Assembly: GCA_030765065.1 (NCBI GenBank)
Contig: CM060988.1
Location: 202,180,565 to 202,244,564 of the forward strand
Direction of reading: 5' to 3'
Source: Deroplatys truncata
Lineage: Eukaryota; Arthropoda; Insecta; Mantodea; Mantidae
DNA length: 64,000 bases
Both the position numbers and the translations under genes were made by a program. Of the stretch, positions 13,443 through 54,315 are shown piece after piece. Position 1 is the stretch's first letter. Every line of letters begins with the position of its first letter. Under the pieces are notes generated by a model. That model was not told where the DNA came from. It did no database searches and was given only the letters and a program-made list of their open reading frames with translations.

Positions 13443-14879
13443 CCATATCACACCCACTCTTCATAATTGTCAATCACTTTAACATGTCGTTTAGTGTGCC
13501 AGTATTAATTGTTTTTTCATATGTTGACTGCAGAAAGAATGTAACAGCACATGCTGGTTTATAAATTTGGGGGCTGGATGAGACACTCGTTCATTAGTAT
13601 TGCTCTCTGTCCTCCATAGTATTTTTAATTTTAATGTCCCTTTTAACTTCACAGGTTTACAGAGATTGGAGACTGGTGGGAGGGGGGATGAAGATGGTGC
13701 AATTGATGGAATTATGGTGGGGAAAACCAGAGAACATTCATTCTAATTGCCATTTTATCTACCACAAAATCCCACCTCTGATCCCTAGGATTGAATCCAG
13801 GCTTTTTTGTGAGAGGCCATAGTGCTGCCCAATTAGAAGTGTGAATATGAGACAACATTTAAAACAGAGATAGCATTACTCAATACTATCAAGTAATGAA
13901 ACCAGGAAGTTGTTTTACAAGCCAGCTCCCACTATGACTTCACAAATGAGGTGTATGTAAATAAAGTAGATACTTAAAAAAGAATAACTATTTCAGCAGA
14001 TATTTTGCCATGCAATACATATTACACATTTATATAATTTAAGTTGGGTGTTTTGTCATAAATATGGTAGCTGACATTTCGATATGTAGAAATCATTCAG
14101 CAATAATGTGGTAATACACAAGTTTTATGTAACTATTTGTACTTCCAAGGCTAGCGCTTAACCGAGTTGACAAAAAAATTCCCAAGGATATACAGTACAT
14201 ATGGAGAATTTTCTGTTTATGAAATGCTTTAAGTTATTTTGCAATGAAAAGAGCATTATGTCCTAATTTATTTATTTATTTGGTATAACAGCAGGAAATA
14301 GTGTTTGAGCACAACACTAATACACATCCAAAATCAAACTATGGATCCCAAAATATTATCATTACATCACATTCAAAATTGAAATAGGTATCAGACATAC
14401 CCTTTGAGCATGAGTTCTCTTGTACGATATTAGTGTGCAATCCATAAAAATAAACTTTTCGAAATACAGTCCCTAATTTGAACACATTTCAACACTAAAT
14501 AGCACAAACACACATTTTAACACCTTAACATACTAAGAATAGTTTATATTTAAGGTTAGCTTGTTTTCGCTATATATATAAATATATATATATTTCAATT
14601 CTTCATTAAAACCAACTAAACTTTCGATTCATAAGCTGTCTTCTACCTTACTAGGTTTTCAGGTCATGTTCCAGTTTTAAACATCGAATGCGCGTTATTT
14701 GGTACTCAATATTAAATAAGGTATCACTATAAACTCCTACATTTACACAATTGCTCGTTGATACGAAAATTCTGGTTTATTTTTATATTTTCGGCATTGC
14801 TATTTTATCAGCTGACTTCCATCTTAGTTTAGTTTCAAGCACAGGTTTCAAGCCTCAGCAATCCGCATGGCAGAGATCG
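13443..14879. other. no recognisable gene; region upstream of SMUG1
   Basis: A short alternating AT run lies at about 14572-14592. A GGATTGAATCC motif at about 13790 weakly resembles a tRNA B-box but without a convincing SINE around it. Nothing else identified. Confidence 0.4.
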
Positions 14880-14995
14880 CGACACCTTCCCCCTTGAACA
14901 GGAGGATCGTTCCCTTTCGTTCATTTTCGGCATTCGCTCGAACTTCGTCGGGCAACTTCGGTTGGCTTTCTGCAAGCGCTAGTAAACTATTTGCG
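14880..14995 (+). repeat. right arm of the inverted duplication, upstream of SMUG1
   Basis: Partner of 11589-11700 in inverted orientation. It lies about 380 bp upstream of the SMUG1 start codon and has the same orientation relative to SMUG1 as the left arm has relative to TMEM245. The similarity drops quickly outside about 110 bp on both sides. Confidence 0.85.
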
Positions 14996-15375
14996 ATCAA
15001 GATGACCAACATTCCACATCCTGCAACATTGTTGCCAAAATGTGCATAGAAAACTTCTGAAAATGCCTGTTTAAAGTTTCAGAACGAAATAAACCACATA
15101 TTTTGGGTTTAAAACTTATATAGTGTATCGCCCAATTACAAATCAGCACTGCAAACTGCAATGCAGTATCTTGCCTCTTTTTTGCCGCAGGCTGCAACAA
15201 GTATGGCGGCCACATAATGGAGGACAACAATTAATAAATTACGGCTTTAAATATGCAGTATTCGTTTATGCGATCTTAATATTACTGCGTGCTCTAGAAT
15301 GTCCTGTATCATATTACTATTTACACTTCGATTTTCAGACTAATCTTTAATGTGTTGAGGTTATCGAGTTTAAGC

Positions 15376-15615
15376 ATGTCTTTGACAGTTCAGGGAGAAT
15401 CAGCCCCAATCTCGCACAAACTTTTGGAAATAGAATTATCGCTTTCATTAAATCTCCGGGGATTAAGCTTTTCAAAACCAGTATCATATATCTATAATCC
15501 ACTTGAATATGCTTTTGATATGCATTCTAATTTTGTGAAAAAGTTCTGCAACACAACAAAGCATGTTTTATTTTTGGGAATGAATCCTGGACCTTGGGGA
15601 ATGTCCCAGACGGGG
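15376..15615 (+). CDS. SMUG1: SMUG1 uracil-DNA glycosylase, exon 1 (residues 1-80)
   Basis: SMUG1 removes uracil and some oxidised pyrimidines such as 5-hydroxymethyluracil from DNA, starting base-excision repair in the nucleus. The joined product is 267 aa, close to the human length of 270. The first in-frame ATG is at 15376; the frame upstream has only non-ATG codons before a stop. Exon 1 ends with the catalytic-site motif GMNPGPWGMSQTG (residues 68-80), in which Asn70 corresponds to the water-activating Asn of the family. The donor GTAATA follows at 15616 in phase 0. Also visible is YNPLEYA, typical of the SMUG1 N-terminal region. All four exons keep frame and GT-AG junctions, so the gene appears intact. 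Confidence 0.93.
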
Positions 15616-15759
15616 GTAATATAATATAACAATGAATGCATCTAATGACAAATATCTTTAAAATACAAACACTTTATCTCGACATTTTTTAAATAAATAA
15701 AGAGACATTGAAAATGTATATGTGCTTATTGACCCTTGCTTACGTTAAGACTTTTTCAG

Positions 15760-16023
15760 GTGCCGTTTGGCGAAGTGAAAATGGTTAAAGAGTGGTTGCA
15801 AGTTACTGGTAATGTTAATAAGCCAGAAAAGGAACACCCTTCCAGGCAGATACTTGGGCTTGCATGTAAACGAAGTGAAGTGAGTGGCAAAAAATTTTGG
15901 GGGCTCTTTCAGTACCTGTGCAAAGATCCTGAGTCCTTTTTTCAGCAGGCTTTTGTTTACAATTACTGCCCCCTTGCTTTCATGACAGACAGTGGTAAAA
16001 ACATAACTCCTGCAGAAATGAAG
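15760..16023 (+). CDS. SMUG1: SMUG1 exon 2 (residues 81-168)
   Basis: Starts after the acceptor TTTTTCAG and completes the active-site segment with VPFGEVKMVKEW. Further family motifs are HPSRQILGLACKRSEVSG, FWGLFQYLC and FVYNYCPLAFM, the last forming part of the uracil-binding pocket in known SMUG1 structures. It ends at AEMK with donor GTAAGG at 16024, phase 0. Intron 1 is only 144 bp. Confidence 0.93.
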
Positions 16024-18096: not shown

Positions 18097-18329
18097 GTAC
18101 GTTTATATATTTTTTACTTCTCCCTTATATGTAGTACAGAGACTTTGTTTGGACGCATGGCCTTATTACTGGAATTGTTGGTCCTGCACTGCACTGTTTT
18201 TAACAGGTTCTGTTCTCTCTCCGTGGGTCAACTAATCAGTTGATGCAAAGTCTGGTGTACAGAGATTGATGCATTATGAGACCACATGTTTTAATGTTGT
18301 TATAAATTTCAAAGAGACCATATACTTTA

Positions 18330-21300
18330 GCACACAGAACCTTCATGTATGATTCCTATGTGACAACAAATTCTTGTAGATAAGTGAGATAGATTCCCTG
18401 TTGTTATAATGCCAGCACACAGAACCTTCATGTATGATTCCTATGTGACAACAAACTCTTGTAGATAAGTGAGATAGATTCCGTGTTGTTATAATGCCAG
18501 CACACAGAATCTTCATGTATGATTCCTATGTGACCACAAACTCTTGTAGAGAAGTGAGATAGATTCCCTGTTGTTATAATGCCAGCACACAGAACCTTCA
18601 TGTATGATTCCTATGTGACAACAAACTCTTGTAGATAAGTGAGATAGATTCCCTGTTGTTATAATGCCAGCACACAGAAACTTCATGTATGATTCCTATG
18701 TGACAACAAAGTCTTGTAGAGAAGTGGGACAGATTCCCTGCTGTTATAATACCAGCACACAGAATCTTCATGTATGATTCCTATGTGACAACAAAGTCTT
18801 GTAGAGAAGTGGGACAGATTCCCTGCTGTTATAATGCCAGCTCACAGAAACTTCATGTATGATTCCTGTGTGACAACAAAGTCTTGTAGAGAAGTGAGAC
18901 AGATTCCCTGCTGTTATAATACCAGCACACAGAATCTTCATGTATGATTCCTATGTGACAACAAACTCTTGTAGAGAAGTGAGACAGATTCCCTGCTGTT
19001 ATAATGCCAGCACACAGAATCTTCATGTATGATTTCTATGTGACAACAAAGTCTTGTAGAGAAGTGAGACAGATTCCCTGCTGTTATAATACCAGCACAC
19101 AGAATCTTCTTGTATGATTCCTATGTGACAACAAACTCTTGTAGAGAAGTGAGACAGATTCCCTGCTGTTATAATGCCAGCACACAGAATCTTCATGTAT
19201 GATTCCTATGTGACAACAAACTCTTGTAGAGAAGTGAGATAGATTCCCTGTTGTTATAATGCCAGCACACAGAATCTTCATGTATGATTCCTATGTGACA
19301 ACAAAATCTTGTAGAGACGTGAGACAGATTCCCTGCTGTTATAATACCAGCACACAGAACCTTCATGTATGATTCCTATGTGACAACAAACTCTTGTAGA
19401 GAAGTGAGATAGATTCCCTGTTGTTATAATGCCAGCACACAGAATCTTCATGTATGATTCCTATGTGACAACAAAATCTTGTAGAGACGTGAGACAGATT
19501 CCCTGCTGTTATAATACCAGCACACAGAACCTGCACACAGAAACTTCATGTATGATTCCTATGTGACAACAAACTCTTGTAGAGAAGTGAGACAGATTCC
19601 CTGTTATATTGCCAGCACACAGAATCTTCATGTATGATTCCTATGTGACAACAAACTCTTGTAGAGAAGTGAGACAGATTCCCTGTTATATTGCCAGCAC
19701 ACAGAATCTTCATGTATGATTCCTATGTGACAACAAACTCTTGTAGAGAAGTGAGACAGATTCCCTGTTATATTGCCAGCACACAGAATCTTCATGTATG
19801 ATTCCTATGTGACAACAAACTCTTGTAGAGAAGTGAGACAGATTCCCTGTTATATTGCCAGCACACAGAATCTTCATGTATGATTCCTATGTGACAACAA
19901 ACTCTTGTAGAGAAGTGAGACAGATTCCCTGTTGTTATAATACCAGCACACAGAATCTTCATGTATGATTCCTATGTGACAACAAACTCTTGTAGAGAAG
20001 TGAGACAGATTCCCTGTTGTTATAATGGCAGCACACAGAATCTTCATGTATGATTCCTATGTGACAACAAACTCTTGTACAGAAGTTAGACAGATTCCCT
20101 GCTGTTATAATGCCAGCACACAGAATCTTCATGTATGATTCCTATGTGACAACAAACTCTTGTAGAGAAGTGAGACAGCTTCCCTGCTGTTATAATACCA
20201 GCACACAGAATCTTCATGTATGATTCCTATGTGACCACAAACTCTTGTAGAGAAGTGAGATAGATTCCCTGTTGTTATAATGCCAGCACACAGAACCTTC
20301 ATGTATGATTCCTATGTGACAACAAACTCTTGTAGATAAGTGAGATAGATTCCCTGTTGTTATAATGCCAGCACACAGAAACTTCATGTATGATTCCTAT
20401 GTGACAACAAAGTCTTGTAGAGAAGTGGGACAGATTCCCTGCTGTTATAATACCAGCACACAGAATCTTCATGTATGATTCCTATGTGACAACAAAGTCT
20501 TGTAGAGAAGTGGGACAGATTCCCTGCTGTTATAATGCCAGCTCACAGAAACTTCATGTATGATTCCTGTGTGACAACAAAGTCTTGTAGAGAAGTGAGA
20601 CAGATTCCCTGCTGTTATAATACCAGCACACAGAATCTTCATGTATGATTCCTATGTGACAACAAACTCTTGTAGAGAAGTGAGACAGATTCCCTGCTGT
20701 TATAATGCCAGCACACAGAATCTTCATGTATGATTTCTATGTGACAACAAAGTCTTGTAGAGAAGTGAGACAGATTCCCTGCTGTTATAATACCAGCACA
20801 CAGAATCTTCTTGTATGATTCCTATGTGACAACAAACTCTTGTAGAGAAGTGAGACAGATTCCCTGCTGTTATAATGCCAGCACACAGAATCTTCATGTA
20901 TGATTCCTATGTGACAACAAACTCTTGTAGAGAAGTGAGATAGATTCCCTGTTGTTATAATGCCAGCACACAGAATCTTCATGTATGATTCCTATGTGAC
21001 AACAAAATCTTGTAGAGACGTGAGACAGATTCCCTGCTGTTATAATACCAGCACACAGAACCTTCATGTATGATTCCTATGTGACAACAAACTCTTGTAG
21101 AGAAGTGAGATAGATTCCCTGTTGTTATAATGCCAGCACACAGAATCTTCATGTATGATTCCTATGTGACAACAAAATCTTGTAGAGACGTGAGACAGAT
21201 TCCCTGCTGTTATAATACCAGCACACAGAACCTGCACACAGAAACTTCATGTATGATTCCTATGTGACAACAAACTCTTGTAGAGAAGTGAGACAGATTC

Positions 21301-22215
21301 CCTGTTATATTGCCAGCACACAGAATCTTCATGTATGATTCCTATGTGACAACAAACTCTTGTAGAGAAGTGAGACAGATTCCCTGTTATATTGCCAGCA
21401 CACAGAATCTTCATGTATGATTCCTATGTGACAACAAACTCTTGTAGAGAAGTGAGACAGATTCCCTGTTATATTGCCAGCACACAGAATCTTCATGTAT
21501 GATTCCTATGTGACAACAAACTCTTGTAGAGAAGTGAGACAGATTCCCTGTTATATTGCCAGCACACAGAATCTTCATGTATGATTCCTATGTGACAAGA
21601 AACTCTTGTAGAGAAGTGAGACAGATTCCCTGTTGTTATAATACCAGCACACAGAATCTTCATGTATGATTCCTATGTGACAACAAACTCTTGTAGAGAA
21701 GTGAGACAGATTCCCTGTTGTTATAATGGCAGCACACAGAATCTTCATGTATGATTCCTATGTGACAACAAACTCTTGTACAGAAGTTAGACAGATTCCC
21801 TGCTGTTATAATGCCAGCACACAGAATCTTCATGTATGATTCCTATGTGACAACAAACTCTTGTAGAGAAGTGAGACAGCTTCCCTGCTGTTATAATACC
21901 AGCACACAGAATCTTCATGTATGATTCCTTTGTGACAACAAACTCTTGTAGAGAAGTGAGACAGATTCCCTGCTGTTATAATGCCAGCACACAGAATCTT
22001 CATGTATGATTCCTATGTGACAACAAACTCTTGTACAGAAGTTAGACAGATTCCCTGCTGTTATAATGCCAGCACACAGAATCTTCATGTATGATTCCTT
22101 TGTGACAACAAACTCTTGTAGAGAAGTGAGACAGATTCCCTGTTATATTGCCAGCACACAGAATCTTCATGTATGATTCCTATGTGAACTCTTGTAAAGA
22201 AGTGGGACAGATTCC
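18330..22215 (+). repeat. 84 bp tandem array, about 46 units, in SMUG1 intron 3
   Basis: The unit has CAGCACACAGAATCTTCATG, TATGATTCCTATGTGACAAC, CTCTTGTAGAGAAGTGAGAC and AGATTCCCTGCTGTTATAAT. The standard period is 84 bp (for example GCCAGCACAC at 18411 and 18495); a subset is shorter through loss of part of CTGTTGTTATAAT. Variants are ordered, not random: the block from about 18499 to 20199 is repeated at 20200-21900, offset 1701 bp. The short minus-strand frames within it are products of the repeat. It lies wholly within an intron and leaves the splice sites intact. Confidence 0.97.
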
Positions 22216-22548
22216 CTGCTGTTTGTGCACCTCACAGAGAAATGGTTCATAATGTGAATAGGTTTAGGAAACAGAAGGTATTCTGGATAAGAAGTGTTCT
22301 TACAGAGGAAAGAGCTTGATGAGATCAGAGAAAAGTTAATAATCTGAGCTTCAAATGCCACTAAAGTTTTAAAATTAAAACCCTATAATATAACGAAGTG
22401 CAATGATGTGAGTAGAGTTAATTTCTGCAATTTGGTGTTGGATAATGCTAATGATCGCTCTGCTGCCAGGTGTATACAAATTTTCTTAAAAGGTGAGAGA
22501 GATGTGTGGAGTTTTTTTCCAAAACCTTCTTTGACAAAGGTAACTTGA

Positions 22549-24921: not shown

Positions 24922-25234
24922 ACAGAGTTTAAATTAAATTAAGTTTTATTTATGGACGCTCTTTAACTACTAGGTTCTTAGTGTCCCATTCTATATTGGG
25001 TGTGAAAGACCGGTAATTTTGCTCAGAGGCCTCTATCAGGCTTGAGATTCTTTTATGTGCTGTAAATCTATAACACGGGACCACCGGCTTTACTTTCCTT
25101 CCAAAGGAAGCCATGCTAAGGATTTTTACGGCCGAAAAAAATCCATCACCCTCCACAGGGTTTGAACCCGCGACCTCGGGAACTAAAGGCTAGCATGGTA
25201 ACCACTACACCACGGAGGATGACACAGAGTTTAA
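24922..25234 (-). mobile_element. tRNA-derived SINE with intact target-site duplication (copy 3)
   Basis: Minus-strand SINE, head on the right (complement of GGTTCAAACC at about 25158-25168, A-box region near 25195-25210) and A/T tail on the left. The 11 bp ACAGAGTTTAA occurs at both edges (24922-24932 and 25224-25234), the mark of insertion by target-primed reverse transcription. This is the clearest insertion of the family here. Confidence 0.92.
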
Positions 25235-32629: not shown

Positions 32630-33072
32630 ACATTGATTGGGTGCCTGCAGGTCAGAGTGTCAAACAGGTTTATTATAAAAATGTTTGAAGTTGTGCAACG
32701 AAGGAGACCAGACTAGTAAAAGAATGCTTCAGGACAGACCCACACACTATATGTGAAGAGTTACTTGGTAAAAACAAGAAAACGTTCCAGTGATGGAACA
32801 TCCATCATATTCACTGGACCCAGCTCTGTGAAACTGTTTTCTCTTCCTGAAAGTCAAGTCTGTGCTCAAAGCAATCAGGTTTGAGTCCATGGATGCAAAG
32901 AAAACAAAAGCAACGCAACTGTTGAACAGCATAACACAAGGTTACCTGCAGTACTGCTTCCAACAGTAGAAAAGTGCTTGGAGTGGCATAGGGACCAGAA
33001 AGGGGACTACATTGCCATTGATTTTTTTTCTCAATAAAGTGTGAATCCAGTTTCTTTATTGCCACACCTTGT
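32630..33072 (+). mobile_element. mariner element, 3' half
   Basis: Continues the mariner of 29093-29842: WVPAGQSVKQVYYKN directly follows the TACATTGA duplication, then HPSYSLDPAL (third catalytic Asp region) and VLKAIRFESMDA. Its right terminus is the reverse complement of the 29093 terminus (TTTCTTTATTGCCACACC). The segment with the second catalytic Asp appears lost. Confidence 0.75.
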
Positions 33073-33752
33073 ACTTCATTAAATTAAATATGCTCTATAA
33101 AGTTTAAATAATGGGAGGAAGGTGTTTTGCTTTCCAAAAGAACACAATAACAGAAGTGTACTGAGATGATCTTAGTAGCTAGCCACCAGGAGCACTAGTA
33201 TCAAACTAATGCATTTTCTCTACATATGGAGGTTTGTAACTGTGGTAGCATTGCATTTGATGAATTCATTTTTACATGTCGATTCCTGTGCAATATTTGT
33301 ATAACCTGGTGCAGAATTCTGTATATTAAATGTGTTTTAAACTTCATATCTGTAGTTTTCATTCTGTGCCTCATTTCCCTGTATGCTTTTAAACATTCTT
33401 CTCTTATATACTTCCTCTGCCTCTGTGTGGGTGTATGCATGTGTCATAAATAAAAGGAAAAAAACAATTTGGATAAATTCCAGATTTCATATATTTATAT
33501 TATACAATTTTAAGGAAGCATAGAGAGCCGAAAATGTGTGGTTGGAATCCTGGCCATGGAACTGGAGTTTTCAAATATGATTCAACTTCCCGCCTACAGA
33601 TGAGGGAACAATTATTAAAACATAAATAATTATAAAGTCTAAAAATTCAAATTAATAGCAACAGAGAACTCAAACAAACAAAAAAGTATTTGACATAATT
33701 TGTGTTTTAATACTAGAAGCTCCATTGGATTACTACTCCCCCCCCAAAAAAA
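33073..33752. other. no recognisable feature
   Basis: Spacer between the two transposon nests. Overlapping frames of 75-79 codons on both strands near 33200-33450 resemble nothing I know. Confidence 0.4.
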
Positions 33753-34079
33753 AGGTGTTACATTCATCTTTACCCATTCACCTTTTTACAAAAATTCTTA
33801 CAAAAGTTTATTATTCTACTTCTTGTTGATCCTTTCAATTCACATTTACACATTTTGTTGTATAATAGAGTAGGTAAAGTGATAGTCAGATTTTTAAAGA
33901 GCTGGTGGCTATGTGATAGCTTTCATGCTCTTTGCATAATGAGAAAAAAAAAAAAAACAATATATTGACATACAAGGGCTACACTAATTTTTTTTAATAA
34001 CATCAAACAAGGATTAGTTTTAACAAATTTAAATGATTTTCATTGATATTTGAAAAGATGCTAGAAACAGTGATGTGTT

Positions 34080-34545
34080 ATTGAATTTATTTAAAGGTGG
34101 GTCGGAATTGTTATACTAATATCACTTATGTTTACTCATTTAACATGTTTCGGGAAATGGTGGTTCCCATTCTCAAAGCTAATCCGACTGACCGGTGTTG
34201 TTGGTGTTTCCGTTTTGTTGACTGGATACTGTGCTGGCATCTTGTGGTGGTGAAATGTACTTCCAGTGGAGACTTGGTGGCGGCAAATCAAAATTCATTA
34301 GATGTATGTTGTGTTTAGAATGGTGATCTTCTCCCATGCATCCAATTCAGCTGGTTTGACTAATGTAATATTGGGTTTGATGCTGTGATTGGTGATCCAA
34401 AAATGGTGTGAAACTGCAGATTTGTTCATTTGTTTGTATTTCATACATCTCATGTGCTCCTTTAGCCTAGTTTCTAGGTTTCTTTTTGTCTTACCAATAT
34501 ATACTTTATTGCAATCCGAACAATTGATTTTGTTGATTCCAGCTT
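34080..34545 (-). pseudogene. inverted Penelope-like 3' segment with GIY-YIG endonuclease
   Basis: Reverse complement of the element's own 3' end. Read on the minus strand from 34545 it encodes AGINKINCSDCNKVYIGKTK followed by RNLETRLKEHMRCMKYKQMN and HHFWITNHSI, keeping the GIY-YIG start, the catalytic Arg region and the downstream His. It keeps parts that are deleted in the plus-strand copy (for example HHFWITNHSI). Junction with the plus-strand reverse transcriptase is at about 34548. Confidence 0.85.
34142..34178 (-). ncRNA. possible eroded hammerhead-ribozyme motif in the Penelope terminal segment
   Basis: On the minus strand, CTTTGAGAATGGGAACCACC is followed by ATTTCCCGAAACATGTT. TGGGAA and TTCCC can pair around a short loop, with a GAAAC strand after it, the arrangement of hammerhead stem II and core; the CUGANGA box is mutated here but reads CTTCTGAGGATGGGAAC in the plus-strand copy near 36305, where the GAAA part is lost. 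Penelope-like elements are known to carry hammerheads in their terminal repeats. Activity is unlikely. Confidence 0.4.
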
Positions 34546-35132
34546 TTTAAAGTTTGGCACAGATATGTCGACAACATCTTTGCTGTTGTCCCTAATAGCT
34601 TCATACAAGACTCCTTAGCCTTACTAAACCTGCAGAACCAATCAATAAAATTCACCACAGAAATAGAAAAAGAAGGCATGCTACCATTTTTAGACCTAAA
34701 AATCATCAGGGAACAAAAGAACCTAACCTTTGGCATATACAGGAAGCCAACACACTCTACTAATTACATAAAAAATTTCAACCACACACAAACATGCAGT
34801 ACTAAATAGCTTAACACATAGACTTGTATATACTCCCTTGAATAAACAAGAATACCAGCACATAGTAGACACACCAATAAATAATGGGTTCAACAAAGCA
34901 ACAATTGACAAAAAATTAGCAAAATTCAAACAACACAAACACATCAAAGGCACAAAAAATCTCATCCAGGATGATAAAGAGCTAAAGTTCAAGAAATTCA
35001 CATACCACCCAGGAACATTTCACAAATTTAAGAAGATTTTCATGAAACACAACATCAGCCTAACCCCACAGAACAAATTTAGCAGAAATTACTTTGTAAC
35101 AAGTTAAAAGACCCCATACCACAAGACAAAAA

Positions 35133-35963
35133 AATCTGATGTGTTACACTCACATGACTTTCTCTACTCTTGTGCAATCTATTTTTACAAACGCCTATAC
35201 TCCATATGCTTCATATTAATCGAGATGTCAATCTTATTTGTAATTTTCTTGTAGATGCAAGGGGAATATGGTAGCTTTTAAGCGATAGTCAAATATTTTA
35301 TTGCTGGTTGCTATGTGGCGCATTCCATTCTCTTTGCATGTCCAGGACATAAAAAAATGAATAACGAATTTGAGAAAAAGTATAAGTATTGGAAAATTTA
35401 AGGAAATAACAAGCAATATCTCGAAAACGGTTCACTCAACAAAAAGAATGTATATGATATAAGTTGTGTATTTTAATGCGATCTACATTTTTCGTGTAGT
35501 AAAATTGTGTCTATCTCTTATGGTTTACCAGTTATGCAAAAGTCGTTCATAATGAAGAATACTTTTGGAGACAATCCCAGAAATTTCGAGATATACATTT
35601 CATTTCTCATGACATTATCTTAAATATATGATATTTTCATCAAAATCGTTAGAGCCATTTTTGAGAAAATTAAAATTTTCGAAAAACGTTCCATGTAAAG
35701 GGTAGTCTGGGGTGGGGGGATTTTCTTGAAAATCTTCGTGTCGCATCTCTGGAAAATACTGAACGTAAATACCAAGTTTGGTGTTTATCCGACTGTTAGT
35801 TTTTGAGTTATGCTGTTCACAGACACACACATGGACATGTTTCCAAAAATGCTTTTTTTGGATTCAGGAGGTCTCAAAACATGTATTTCCGGTGAAATCT
35901 CGGTATCGAATTTTTGGGTGGAATGCAATACTTCCCCTACTTACTATACGTAGTAGAGAAAGT
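35133..35963 (+). mobile_element. family A element inside the Penelope-like element
   Basis: Near full-length copy with both termini and AAAAA at both edges (within 35128-35134 and 35964-35968). Removing it with one AAAAA leaves ACAAGACAAAAAGCTGGAAT, a continuous frame into the GIY-YIG domain, which fixes its borders. Its CA microsatellite is short. Confidence 0.88.
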
Positions 35964-37914
35964 AAAAAGCTGGAATCTACAAAATCAATTGTTCAGATTG
36001 CAATAAAGTATATATAGGTAAGACAAAAAGAAACCTAGAAACTAGGCTAAAGGAGATGTATCAAATACAAACAAATGGACAAATCTGCAGTTTCACAGCA
36101 TCAAACCCAATATTACATTAGTCAAACCAGCCAAATTAGATGCATGGGAGAAGATCACCATTCTAAAACACAACACACATCTAATGAATTTTGATTTGCT
36201 GCCACCAAGTCCTCTCTGGAAGTACATTTGACAAACACAAGATGCCACCACAGTATCCAGTCAACAAAACTGAAACACCAACACCACCAGAAAGTTGGAC
36301 TAGCTTCTGAGGATGGGAACAAAAGTGAGTAGTAAACATAAGTGATGTTAGTGTAACAATTCCAACTCACCTTTAAATAAATTCAATGATTTTATTGTTT
36401 TTCAAAGTGTTCCCCTTAAACATCAATACACTTTTGCATTTGATGAAACTAGTCCTTAAAGCAGTGATGCCACTCTTCCTGAGGCACTTGAGAAACCAGG
36501 TTTTTGTAATGTTTCACTGCTTCAACTGATTCCATACACTTTATCTTTAACTTTTGAAAACAAAAAGAAATCACAGGGCTTTATGGTGGAGGGTTCATAG
36601 TGCTGTTGTTAGTTTTGCTGTATGCAACTTGTGTTGTCATGGTGTAACATTTTTCCTTTTGAGCGTTTTTCACTAATTTTTTCAAAAATTTGCAGTAAAA
36701 AGCATACCAATTGGCAGCAATGGTACATCTACCTTCTAATGCTTTAGTACAAATATGGCCCATTTTAGAAAAAAAAAATTGCAACCATCTTCTTACCATC
36801 ACTGTGAATTTATCTGACTTTTATAGGCTTAGCTTCGTTCAAAAACCCATTGAGCTGATTGGCTTTTCTCTTCAGGATCGTAACACAATAAATCCAAGAT
36901 TTATCACCTATTATATTCCAAACCAAATTTGAAGTGTCATCTTGGAATTCTTCTGCAACAACCAATGCTTTGTTTTTGATCGGCAGCCAGTTTATGTGGA
37001 AACATCAACAATAAAGTTTTCTCACGTCTAACTGTTAATATAAAATGTTTTGGATTTGACTCATACCAATGCCGAATGTTGCCCAAATAAATTCATAAGA
37101 TGTGCGTCGATCTTCTTCAAGCATTGCTCAAACAGCGACAATATTTTCATCAGCAACAGCAGTTCTTCATGAAATTCATCATTAAGAAGACACTGATCTC
37201 TTTTGAATTCCCTGTACCAATTATATATTCTTGCCTTAGATAGGGCTTCTTCACCAAATGCATTTCTAAGCTGATCTTCACATCGTTTAGATGTTATGAC
37301 AATTTAAAATTGTAAAAATCCATAGCCCAGAAATATTCTCTAGTCAAATTAATTTTTGGATGAACACAAAATTTTTAAATAATGATAATTAACAAACTAT
37401 TAGAGGAAATTGAACAAACTACATGTAATCAACTCGCAAAACATTAGAAAGTAGCATTCAAATATAATGAAATTTAATTTGTTTTTAGATAGATTGTAAA
37501 ACTTTTTAGTATTGCCCTCATATATTGTGTGCTTTAACAAGCTCAACATTTTTTGTATAACAAGACTTTGTCTCTCTCAAGGTTTATCAGCTATACAAAA
37601 GTCATTCTGCATGAAGAGGACTTCAGAGATATTCCCAGAAATTTGGCCTGAAAAATCTTATAACACATGGTAGTTTAATCAAAATCGTTGGCCATTTTTG
37701 AGAAAATCAAAATTATCAAAACATTTTCCATGTTAAAGGTCATTTGGGATGTGAGATTTTCTTGAAAACCATGTCGCTTCCTTGGAAGATGATAAACTTA
37801 AATACAAATTTAAGTTTGGTATTTAACCAACTTCTCGTTTTTGAGTTATGCTGTTCACGACACATATTTTTTTTTTTTTTTCAAAAACAGTTCTTTACTT
37901 TTTAAATGGAAAAT

Positions 37915-38190
37915 TGAAGTAGTTTTTATTTATGGACACTGTTTAACTACTGTGGTCCTTAGCATACCATTCTATATTGGGTGTGAAAGACTGGTAATTT
38001 TTATCATGTTTGAGGTTCTTTTACGTGCCGTAAATCTATGACACGGGACCACTGGCTTTACTTACCTTCCAAAGGAAGCCATGCTAAAAAGTTTTACGCC
38101 CGAAAAAATGCATCGCCCTCCGCCAGATTTTAACTCACGACCTCGGGAACTAGAGGCCAGCATGGTAACCACTACACCACGGAGGATGAC
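37915..38190 (-). mobile_element. tRNA-derived SINE inside the outer family A element (copy 4)
   Basis: Minus-strand copy; head at the right with the A-box region near 38160-38175, body motifs GGCTTTACTTACCTTCC and CCATTCTATATTGGGTGTGA, tail at left. Family A sequence resumes directly on the right (TTTTAGGTGGAATG). Confidence 0.88.
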
Positions 38191-38518
38191 ATTTTAGGTG
38201 GAATGCTGCACATACCATGGATATGTATGTGCTAGGAAAAGTAAAAGTAGTTCTCTCTGTTGCAGAGAAAAACAAGGCTTAAAAAGGGAAAGTTACACAG
38301 AAAGTTCTAAATTTAAAATGGTAAAAGATGACAGTAAAAAGTAATATATCAGGCAGTAGACTTAAGAAAACTAACATGGAAAATGGGGGAACCCTACCAT
38401 ATTCCATCATTCATTACTCCCTTCTCCTGCAAATAAGTAGTTTTAAGAACAACCTCTATACTGACACTACAAGGGCAGTGTGGAAAGATGGTGCTCATGA
38501 TATCAAATAGGAAGTATG

Positions 38519-41147
38519 TGTGATGAGTGTCATGTTAAATGACAAACAAGCTTGCTGACATTACCAGGATCTTATTAGATAGTGTCTGGAACATTTACAC
38601 ATGAGAAAGCTCACGGTGTGATGAGTGTCATGTTAAATGACAAACAAGCTTGCTGACATTACCAGGATCTTATTAGATAGTGTCTGGAACATTTACACAT
38701 GAGAAAGCTCACAGTGTGTCATGTTAAATGACAGACGAGCTTGCTGACATTACCAGGATCTTATTAGATAGTGTCTGGAACATTTACACATGAGAAAGCT
38801 CACAGTGTGATGAGTGTCATGTTAAATGACAAACAAGCTTGCTGACATTACCAAGATCTCATTAGATAGTGTCTGGAACATTTACACATGAGAAAGCTCA
38901 CAGTGTGATGAGTGCCATGTTAAATGACAAACAAGCTTGCTGACATTACCAAGATCTTATTAGATAGTGTCTGGAACATTTACACATGAGAAAGCTCACA
39001 GTGTGATGAGTGCTATGTTAAATGACAGACAAGCTTGCTGACATTACCAGGATCTCATTAGATAGTGTCTGGAACATTTACACATGAGAAAGCTCACAGT
39101 GTGATAAGTGCCATGTTAAATGACAGACAAGCTTGCTGACATTACCAGGATCTCATTAGATAGTGTCTGGAACATTTACACATGAGAAAGCTCACAGTGT
39201 GATAAGTGCCATGTTAAATGACAGACAAGCTTGCTGACATTACCAGGATCTCATTAGATAGTGTCTGGAACATTTACACATGAGAAAGCTCACAGTGTGA
39301 TAAGTGCTATGTTAACTGACAGACAAGCTTGCTGACATTACCAGGATCTCATTAGATAGTGTCTGGAACATTTACACATGAGAAAGCTCACAGTGTGATA
39401 AGTGCTATGTTAACTGACAGACAAGCTTGCTGACATTACCAGGATCTCATTAGATAGTGTCTGGAACATTTATACATGAGAAAGCTCACAGTGTGATAAG
39501 TGCCATGTTAACTGACAGACAAGCTTGCTGACATTACCAAGATCTCATTAGATAGTGTCTGGAACATTTATACATGAGAAAGCTCACAGTGTGATAAGTG
39601 CCATGTTAACTGACAGACAAGCTTGCTGACATTACCAGGATCTCATTAGATAGTGTCTGGAACATTTATACATGAGAAAGCTCACAGTGTGATAAGTGCC
39701 ATGTTAAATGACAGACAAGCTTGCTGACATTACCAAGATCTCATTAGATAGTGTCTGGAACATTTACACATGAGAAAGCTCATGTGCCATTTAAATGACA
39801 GACACACTTGCTGACATTACCAAGATCTCATTAGATCGTGTCTGGAACATTTATACATGAGAAAGCTCACAGTGTGATGAGTGCCATGTTAAATGACAGA
39901 CGAGCCTGTTGACATTACCAAGATCTCATTAGATCGTGTCTGGAACATTTATACATGAGAAAGCTCACAGTGTGATGAGTGCCATGTTAAATGACAGACG
40001 AGCCTGTTGACATTACCAACATCTCATTAGATAGTGTCTGGAACATTTATACATGAGAAAGCTCACAGTGTGATAAGTGCCATGTTAAATGACAGACAAG
40101 CTTGCTGACATTACCAAGATCTCATTAGATAGTGTCTGGAACATTTATACATGAGAAAGCTCACAGTGTGATGAGTGCCATGTTAAATGACAGACAAGCC
40201 TGTTGACATTACCAAGATCTCATTAGATCGTGTCTGGAACATTTATACATGAGAAAGCTCACAGTGTGATGAGTGCCATGTTAAATGACAGACGAGCCTG
40301 TTGACATTACCAAGATCTCATTAGATAGTGTCTGGAACATTTATACATGAGAAAGCTCACAGTGTGATAAGTGCCATGTTAAATGACAGACAAGCTTGCT
40401 GACATTACCAAGATCTCATTAGATAGTGTCTGGAACATTTACACATGAGAAAGCTCACAGTGTGATGAGTGCCATGTTAAATGACAGACAAGCTTGCTGA
40501 CATTACCAAGATCTCATTAGATAGTGTCTGGAACATTTACACATGAGAAAGCTCATGTGCCATTTAAATGACAGACACACTTGCTGACATTACCAAGATC
40601 TCATTAGATCGTGTCTGGAAGATTTATACATGAGAAAGCTCACAGTGTGATAAGTGCTATGTTAAATGACAGACGAGCCTGTTGACATTACCAAGATCTC
40701 ATTAGATCGTGTCTGGAACATTTATACATGAGAAAGCTCACAGTGTGATGAGTGCCATGTTAAATGACAGACGAGCCTGTTGACATTACCAAGATCTCAT
40801 TAGATCGTGTCTGGAACATTTATACATGAGAAAGCTCACAGTGTGATAAGTGCTATGTTAAATGACAGACGAGCCTGTTGACATTACCAAGATCTCATTA
40901 GATCGTGTCTGGAACATTTATACATGAGAAAGCTCACAGTGTGATAAGTGCTATGTTAAATGACAGACGAGCCTGTTGACATTACCAAGATCTCATTAGA
41001 TCGTGTCTGGAACATTTATACATGAGAAAGCTCACAGTGTGATAAGTGCTATGTTAAATGACAGACGAGCCTGTTGACCTTACCAAGATCTCATTAGATA
41101 GTGTCTGGAAGATTTATACATGAGAAAGCTCACAGCGTGATGATGCT
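38519..41147 (+). repeat. 98 bp tandem array, about 27 units
   Basis: The unit has GCCATGTTAAATGACAGACA, AGCTTGCTGACATTACCA, AGATCTCATTAGATAGTGTC and TGAGAAAGCTCACAGTGTGA. For example, TGATGAGTGT occurs at 38521 and 38619. Variants cluster: GACAAACAAG units at the left, GACAGACAAG in the middle and GACGAGCCTGTTGAC units towards the right, with a shared short variant (CTCATGTGCCATTTAAATG) at about 39780 and 40553. No coding content. A mariner relic begins directly after the array. Confidence 0.97.
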
Positions 41148-53889: not shown

Positions 53890-54315
53890 CTTCATTCTAT
53901 ATAACCTTAGGTTTCTGAATTTACGCAAGGTTACCCTTAGGTTAGGTTTTTTTTATATAACCTTAGGATTCTGAATTCACGCATGGTTAGCTTAGGTTAG
54001 ATTTTTTTATATAAGCTTAGGTTTCTGAATTCATGCAAGGTTAGTCTTAGGTTAGGTTTTTTTTATATAACCTTAGGTTTCTGAATTTACACAAGGTTAG
54101 CCTTAGGTTAGGTTTTTTTTATATAACCTTAGGATTCTGAATTCACGCATGGTTAGCTTAGGTTTCTGAATTCACGCAAGGTTAGTCTTAGGTTAGTTTT
54201 TTTTCATAGATATAACCTTAGGTTTCTGAATTCACGCAAGGTTAGCCTTAGGTTAGGTTTTTTTTTTTATTTAACCTTAGGTTTCTGAATTCACGCAAGG
54301 TTTAGTTTTCTTTTT
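53890..54315. repeat. tandem repeat of about 57 bp with TTAGG motifs, about 7 units
   Basis: Units contain TATATAACCTTAGGTTTCTG, AATTCACGCAAGGTTAG, CCTTAGGTTAGGTT and a T run of 7-10. Unit lengths differ through the T run and a partial deletion near 54150. TTAGGTTAGG is two copies of the common insect telomere unit, but most of each unit is non-telomeric. Confidence 0.9.

Follow-up and report, generated by a model that had tools for sequence, protein, structure and literature searches.

We analysed a 64,000-nucleotide stretch of the genome of the mantis Deroplatys truncata (the window; C14:202180565-202244564 in a 4.29-Gb genome of 818 contigs) and found four mobile elements stacked one inside another, each of which can be peeled away by excision: an old copy of a repeat that we call family A, a mariner, a Penelope-like element (PLE) and a young family A copy. 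A reading made from the sequence alone had proposed this four-layer nest together with a short interspersed element (SINE), and all of the layers are present; the genomic matches to both family A copies, the mariner and the PLE put this well outside chance. The nest almost certainly arose by successive independent insertions through different mechanisms. Family A itself is a non-autonomous Helentron (HINE), a short derivative of a rolling-circle transposon, and this genome also contains autonomous relatives that retain open frames. Nests of this kind are unremarkable where repeats abound; what deserves attention is the scale on which family A nests within itself. The outer family A copy, the mariner, the PLE and the inner family A copy were tested against genomic copies, and the SINE was compared only with six further copies inside the window.

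Every junction of the nest carries the expected duplication or target, namely TA for the mariner, 12-13 bp for the PLE, an A-run for family A and a degenerate 10 bp for the SINE. The innermost layer, a young family A copy on the minus strand, lies between an A7 (35128-35134) and an A5 (35964-35968). It had been placed at 35133-35963 between the reverse transcriptase (RT) and endonuclease (EN) parts of the PLE; the placement stands and the start shifts, giving a core of 35135-35963. A genome search with this copy gave 3,243 candidates, the best 40 of which were scored, and the 39 besides itself were 90-97% identical. All 20 copies that we fetched lie in A-rich tracts, start with TCTGATGTG after such a tract (TCTGAAGTG in one copy) and end with GAGAAAGT before another, their termini being alike apart from scattered single changes. 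Right flanks open with AAAAA in 18 of the 20 and with AATAAA in L020 and L035. We found the insertion site uninterrupted in all 22 PLE RT-EN sites read, with the exact sequence GAC-A5/6-GCTGG in 14 (including L069) and a substitution in or beside the run in 8; a 23rd PLE row, the inverted arm of L069, was excluded from this count. The PLE A-run of 5-6 has become A7 and A5 around the inner copy, a homopolymer that hides which As were duplicated and which were carried by the element.

The PLE, delimited by genomic copies and by its flanking duplication, spans 34046-36385 on the plus strand; its 5' part is truncated, and an inverted arm derived from its own 3' end precedes it. Its target duplication reads ATGATTTTCATTG on the left (34033-34045, in the mariner 3' region) and ATGATTTTATTG on the right (36386-36397). 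The inverted arm (34046-34549, minus strand) comprises a pseudo-long terminal repeat (pLTR) and an EN part with a tail of about 30 nt (34046-34076), and is followed on the plus strand by the C-terminal part of the RT (34550-35127, from a YVDN motif recognized by eye) and, beyond the inner family A copy, by the GIY-YIG EN part with a tail-less pLTR (35964-36385). An EN-part search of the genome yielded 1,988 candidates (best 40 scored, 20 loci fetched); the 3' end continued into the tail TCAATAACACATCACTG... on 17 of the 32 ends listed, and all 11 loci with two opposed ends carried the tail on one of the two and not on the other, L058 and L059 being apparent duplicates of each other. In the window the tail is on the left, inverted arm and absent from the right end, so the element runs from 34046 to 36385, and the narrower limits of the sequence-only reading, 34077-36382, were corrected. 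The location in the end of the mariner was right: 17 of 20 genomic mariners are uninterrupted across the PLE site (L040, L044 and L052 stop short of it), and the joint left by excision, ATTTAAATGATTTTATTGTTTTTC, is identical to that of L039, L041 and L042.

The decayed mariner (33973-37520, transposase on the minus strand) has the ends CAAGGGCTACACTAA and TGAGGGCAATACTAA, is interrupted by the PLE, and is flanked by TA at 33971-33972 and 37521-37522, as read in the sequence. Its coordinates and its insertion at TA within GACATA of family A had been predicted exactly, and its removal restores a consensus-like joint, GACA-TA-TATTGTGTGCTTTAAC compared with GACA-TA-AATTGTGTATTTTAAC in the consensus. 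We had considered a site at the first GACATA, beside the A7 run, which would leave a hole of about 105 bp; alignment with more copies pointed to the second GACATA, where about 84 missing bp fall beside the joint. The inverted ends of the mariner are identical at 17 of 27 positions. A genome search gave 6,811 candidates, of which the best 40 were scored and 20 fetched; no intact mariner frame was found in these 20 copies, the longest stop-to-stop stretch being 221 aa. One relative (L055) matched the Mos1 transposase (2.2e-5) and, under the cut-off, Pfam HTH_48 (5.7e-4), and the frames of three others (L037, L045 and L049) matched no mariner family. The element resembles Mos1-like mariners in its TA target, its short inverted ends and this match of a relative's frame, and differs in that the window copy is old and decayed.

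The SINE (37910-38191, minus strand) lies within the outer family A copy, as had been proposed, and has a degenerate duplication on both sides (TTTTAAATGG at 37900-37909 and TTTTAGGTGG at 38192-38201; 8 of 10 bases identical). An exact SINE duplication, TTAAACTCTG, was seen by eye at the window copy at 24931. The tRNA-like head resembles A and B boxes by eye only, and ARAGORN found no tRNA within the window. The SINE and the mariner are both inside the outer copy, and no junction here gives their relative order.

The layering order proposed from sequence alone was borne out by divergence as well as by the junctions. Kimura two-parameter (K2P) distance to the consensus fell from outside to inside: 0.329 for the outer family A copy, 0.110 for the mariner (0.077-0.121 over 20 copies), 0.045-0.050 for the PLE (RT 0.045, with 12 of 20 loci long enough; EN 0.050; inverted arm 0.050) and 0.013 for the inner family A copy (0.004-0.032 over 20 copies). 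By part, the outer copy measured 0.386 on the left, 0.283 on the right and 0.456 in the 57 columns beyond the SINE. The value of 0.329 was measured against a consensus of 13 mixed copies and includes subfamily divergence, which terminal branches reduce; FastTree terminal branches had the same order (outer family A 0.193, mariner 0.130, PLE 0.037-0.055 and inner family A 0.0135). Junctions, divergence and terminal branches thus agree in making family A the first layer of the nest as well as the last, and the suggested comparison of its two copies with their consensus set the old outer copy apart from the young inner one. The nest is in effect a relative chronology of several transposon classes within one 4.5-kb stretch.

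Several observations weigh against this account of the nest. Excision rejoins the flanks into the outer family A copy, the mariner and the PLE, as had been anticipated, but two stretches of the consensus are still absent from the outer copy, the roughly 84 bp that adjoin the mariner site on its left and a further 67 bp or so at the SINE site, and therefore two extra deletions must be assumed. The empty sites are copies within the same genome and not orthologous loci of related species, and copies were picked by similarity to the window, which biases the consensus sequences toward young ones. Three open pieces of the window PLE and mariner matched no transposon family in Pfam, and Rfam detected no hammerhead ribozyme in window positions 33000-39000 or in the 12 of 20 PLE loci searched. 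The two PLE arms also carry unlike subfamily deletions and differ by 0.091 K2P; they were therefore probably non-identical at insertion and give no clean clock.

Consistent with a Helentron origin of family A, the genome contains elements that share its ends and retain long frames. A Helitron_like_N search gave 152 matches (best 150 of 291 candidates scored), and at least 18 of those listed lie in open frames of at least 2,000 aa. Two loci, on contigs C9 and C13, have a 10.3-kb block in common at 99.4% identity. On its 5' side the C9 element contains TTTTACTTTCTCTACTACGTATAGTAAGTAGGGG, within the reverse complement of the right ~640 nt of family A (90%), and it ends in GTAGAGAAAGTTATGTGAATGTAACACATCAGATTTTTTT, within the reverse complement of the left 40 nt (95%). 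Between these two family A-like ends is a 2,324-aa open frame that matches Helitron_like_N (4.5e-28) and PIF1 (6.6e-29) in Pfam, with a C-terminal match to Exo_endo_phos_2 (4e-5) below the Pfam cut-off. The ends that it shares with this autonomous element of the Rep-helicase-endonuclease-like type make family A a HINE. A very abundant repeat of this 4.3-Gb genome is thereby identified as derived from a Helentron, with an autonomous partner in which long frames remain open. In its N-terminal half (L099:6327-9800) the C9 frame also matches Herpes_teg_N (2.8e-9) and DUF6570 (5.1e-17), the former perhaps an OTU/USP-like protease part.

The autonomous unit is itself a composite. The C9 (L099) and C13 (L101/L102) loci also share an outer piece of family A, up to another ACTTTCTCTACT end at c9 3825, and differ beyond it; at this first 5' end (c9 ~3820), 140 of 141 bases are identical inside and the sequences outside are unrelated. 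A second 5' end lies 626 bp further in, at c9 4451, and there is a single 3' end. The mobile unit is thus about 10.4 kb long and has a doubled 5' end but a single 3' end; in both loci read it is a composite formed by self-insertion and then moved in one piece. A reading as a 9.8-kb element within a further family A copy was set aside because the extra 5' piece is common to both loci.

Family A resembles HINEs and DINE-1-like elements as described in PMC4067079, which reports 12-15-bp subterminal repeats, a 3' palindrome, a microsatellite and T-rich targets. The inner copy has asymmetric inverted repeats of about 12 bp on the minus strand, ACTTTCTCTACT at the 5' terminus (35952-35963) and AGTAGAGAAAGT in a subterminal 3' position (35157-35168), followed by palindrome-like, hairpin-like sequence to 35135. 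Like the published elements, family A has an internal CA microsatellite, inserts at T-runs (A-runs), shares its ends with a Rep-helicase-endonuclease-like element and has no long frame in its copies. It fits that account except that its 3' hairpin is energetically unremarkable: the predicted ATGTG..CACAT stem is weak (z -1.08, equalled or bettered by 31 of 200 shuffles), and the 5' palindrome reached z -1.93 (10 of 200). Family A also differs in that its 3' repeat lies ~22-24 nt from the end, compared with 38-60 in mite families, that its copy number is very high, and that many copies lie in its own internal A-run.

Such self-nesting is widespread. Ten of the 20 fetched family A copies lie next to further sequence of the family, four at its own A7 run (L021, L024, L027 and L029) and six elsewhere (L018, L020, L025, L026, L033 and L034). 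Genome-wide, we counted 15,886 exact left and 14,392 exact right self-junctions, 57,555 uninterrupted internal sites, 177,542 exact family A termini and 6,873 head-to-tail terminal junctions; reversed-pattern controls for left, right, internal site, termini and head-to-tail gave 0, 0, 1, 0 and 0. The left pattern (CATAAAAA before the terminus) admits unrelated CATAAAAA targets, perhaps a few thousand by a rough base-composition estimate; the right pattern, which contains 12 bases specific to the family, gives the safer count. Occupancy of exact internal sites is about 20% (14,392/71,947), and about 9% of termini are there. Extrapolation from the window gives 8.85 million A/T runs of at least 6, of which the internal site makes up 0.8%, an excess of about tenfold that is crude, as it ignores when sites arose and amplification by arrays or composites.

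We sampled C1:24.0-31.2 Mb, using 59 left and 44 right junctions from the first places listed. Among 45 left clusters, 16 were paired with a properly placed right junction no more than 2.5 kb away and 29 lacked such a partner; in one cluster the right junction lay on the wrong side. Spacing was 851-910 bp, equal to one full copy, in 11 of the 16 pairs. One locus is a two-level doll, with left junctions at 24524245 and 24524013 and right junctions at 24523140 and 24522493. This locus (C1:24522493-24524271) is one example of a genome-wide pattern of recursive nesting in the internal A7, with paired left and right junctions and ladders of ~221-232 bp on the left and ~610-670 bp on the right.

These data suggest, tentatively and at rather less than even confidence, that family A is a Helentron system that prefers one oligo-A tract in its own copies and forms recursive nests ([1-226]k [1-831] [220-831]k) at on the order of ten thousand loci, and that a fraction of these nests were remobilised as composites with doubled 5' ends, including the autonomous element. 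Family A would then provide its own landing pad, and its nests a readable clock of its activity. Separate insertions are favoured by the four same-site nests read, in which the outer parts are diverse (right parts 0.064-0.087 apart; left parts, in three nests, 0.032-0.098) and the inner copies lie only 0.006-0.019 from the consensus. If the targeting is real, it would supply thousands of self-insertions for which the target, the orientation and the empty site are all known, would allow a direct test of how Helentrons modify their target (duplication or none), and would show how a transposon can limit its own damage by landing in itself.

Alternatively, nested composites may have been amplified by transposition or in tandem arrays, with few independent self-insertions, a serious possibility that we nonetheless consider somewhat improbable. 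Composites do move, as shown by the autonomous unit with its two 5' ends, and this can bear on the number of independent insertions behind the self-junctions. The extra 5' piece common to C9 and C13, shared from the first through the second 5' end, therefore weakens self-targeting and strengthens amplification. Remobilised self-insertions are also the explanation given for such a pattern in Fusarium (PMC5148889). Tandem arrays exist, such as a 3.4-kb array at the start of C1 and a 2,481-bp ladder at C1:19824429; the left outer parts of L024 and L027 are only 0.032 apart; and the 29 left clusters above had no nearby exact right junction. Against amplification stand the divergence of the right outer parts relative to the inner copies in the four nests, and the closeness of the left and right counts, which chimaeras with a surplus end would skew. 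The Fusarium FoHeli elements are likewise Helitron-like elements in their own kind, with composites of several 5' ends and one 3' end; there, however, one nested example and some copies with several 5' termini are given, compared with ~14,000-16,000 exact family A junctions at one internal site, left about equal to right. We found no single-site Helentron self-nesting on such a scale in the parts of the literature covered by our search. Near the start of C1 (20528-122802), the array consists of a ~3,408-bp unit with a family A terminus.

We also considered whether the outer copy belongs to a separate, related Helentron-derived family, so that the oldest and youngest layers would not be the same family. 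This copy occupies about 33754-38242 on the minus strand, which is also its Helentron 5'-to-3' direction, between A-runs at 33746-33753 and 38243-38246, and is interrupted by the mariner and the SINE. A genome search gave 7,753 candidates (best 40 scored), and a search for an old family A subfamily gave 11,014 (best 40 scored). For the alignment, 20 relatives were fetched, 13 full-length copies were used and 7 partial, composite or rearranged ones were dropped (L081, L083, L086, L093, L095, L096 and L097). The distance of 0.33 K2P from the consensus, the 73-78% identity of the 39 scored matches besides itself, and a FastTree position among other old window copies (branches 0.139-0.185), apart from the young ones, are all compatible with a separate family. 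However, the copy aligns over nearly the whole length of the young element and has A-run flanks; intermediates at 0.125-0.20 (L088, L089, L094 and L098) bridge the gap; and a related old copy, A46377, retains 11 of 12 bases of the subterminal repeat. We therefore regard separate families as unlikely. The earlier claim that family A was active over a long span holds for the family lineage, although the grouping of the outer copy with other old copies implies subfamily turnover.

A further alternative is that the inner family A insertion and the PLE inverted-arm breakpoint were one event, in which the insertion may have driven the rearrangement. The inverted arm stops at the same A-run that family A entered (34549/34550 and 35963/35964). 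By contrast, L069 has the same arm/RT junction around the joint and an uninterrupted RT-EN site, and an A-run could readily serve the rearrangement as microhomology and the insertion as target; a single event is very improbable. The junction, CCAGCTTTTTAAAGTTTGG, is common to L069 (3330-3370) and the window (34535-34565), with different variant deletions of the arms, and reflects either a shared source or a recurrent strand switch at the A-run.

The PLE otherwise resembles Penelope-like elements as described in two reports (PMC3846280, PMC11167929), in which PLE-group elements have an optional 30-40-bp tail, inverted pLTRs and duplications of 8-10 bp. Shared features are the RT and GIY-YIG EN, the inverted pLTR, the optional tail of about 30 nt and a short duplication (12-13 bp here); unlike those elements, both window arms have a degraded hammerhead core and each arm has different variant deletions. 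By pattern, the core CTGANGA..CGAAAC occurs in 16 of 20 PLE loci and nowhere in window positions 33901-36500; it is mutated in the left arm (34150-34200) and deleted in the right (36300-36340). We dropped the arm-to-arm distance as an insertion clock, the deletion patterns of the two arms being unlike. One relative (L064) contains RVT_1 (6.9e-12) and GIY-YIG (1.1e-4) within a single frame, and another (L061) contains GIY-YIG (8e-7). Two PLE loci ~36 kb apart, L058 and L059 (C14:212.16 and 212.12 Mb), have the same hit coordinates and are probably a local duplication.

An apparent nest produced by misassembly, since misjoins can occur in high-copy elements, or by ectopic recombination between dispersed repeats is exceedingly unlikely, given that every junction has its own duplication or target and that divergence falls monotonically through the layers.

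Junctions, empty sites, divergence order and the ends common to family A and the autonomous Helentron are demonstrated for the nest; the chemistry of each step is proposed from what is known of the families. A HINE inserted into an oligo-A tract long ago, and a mariner then entered it at TA, probably by cut-and-paste. The PLE followed into the mariner 3' end with its 12-13-bp duplication, probably by target-primed reverse transcription, and arrived truncated at its 5' side and bearing an inverted pLTR arm. A young HINE, for which autonomous Helentrons probably supplied the Rep-helicase-endonuclease in trans and which would have moved by rolling-circle chemistry, entered the A-run of lysine codons between the RT and EN parts. 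The SINE was retroposed into the outer HINE at some stage. Family A is both first and last, in this account, because the parent Helentron lineage stayed active while subfamilies turned over.

The window also contains two satellite arrays, one of an 85-bp unit (~46 copies, 18329-22223) and one of a 98-bp unit (~27 copies, 38518-41141) that begins about 275 bp past the nest. Tandem repeats rich in CCTTAGG/TTAGGTTAGG lie at 53898-54302; we take these to resemble insect telomere repeats. Elsewhere in the assembly, contig C16 measures 707,006,351 bp, about twice the next largest met (C1-C15 span 134-339 Mb), and looks like a giant X.

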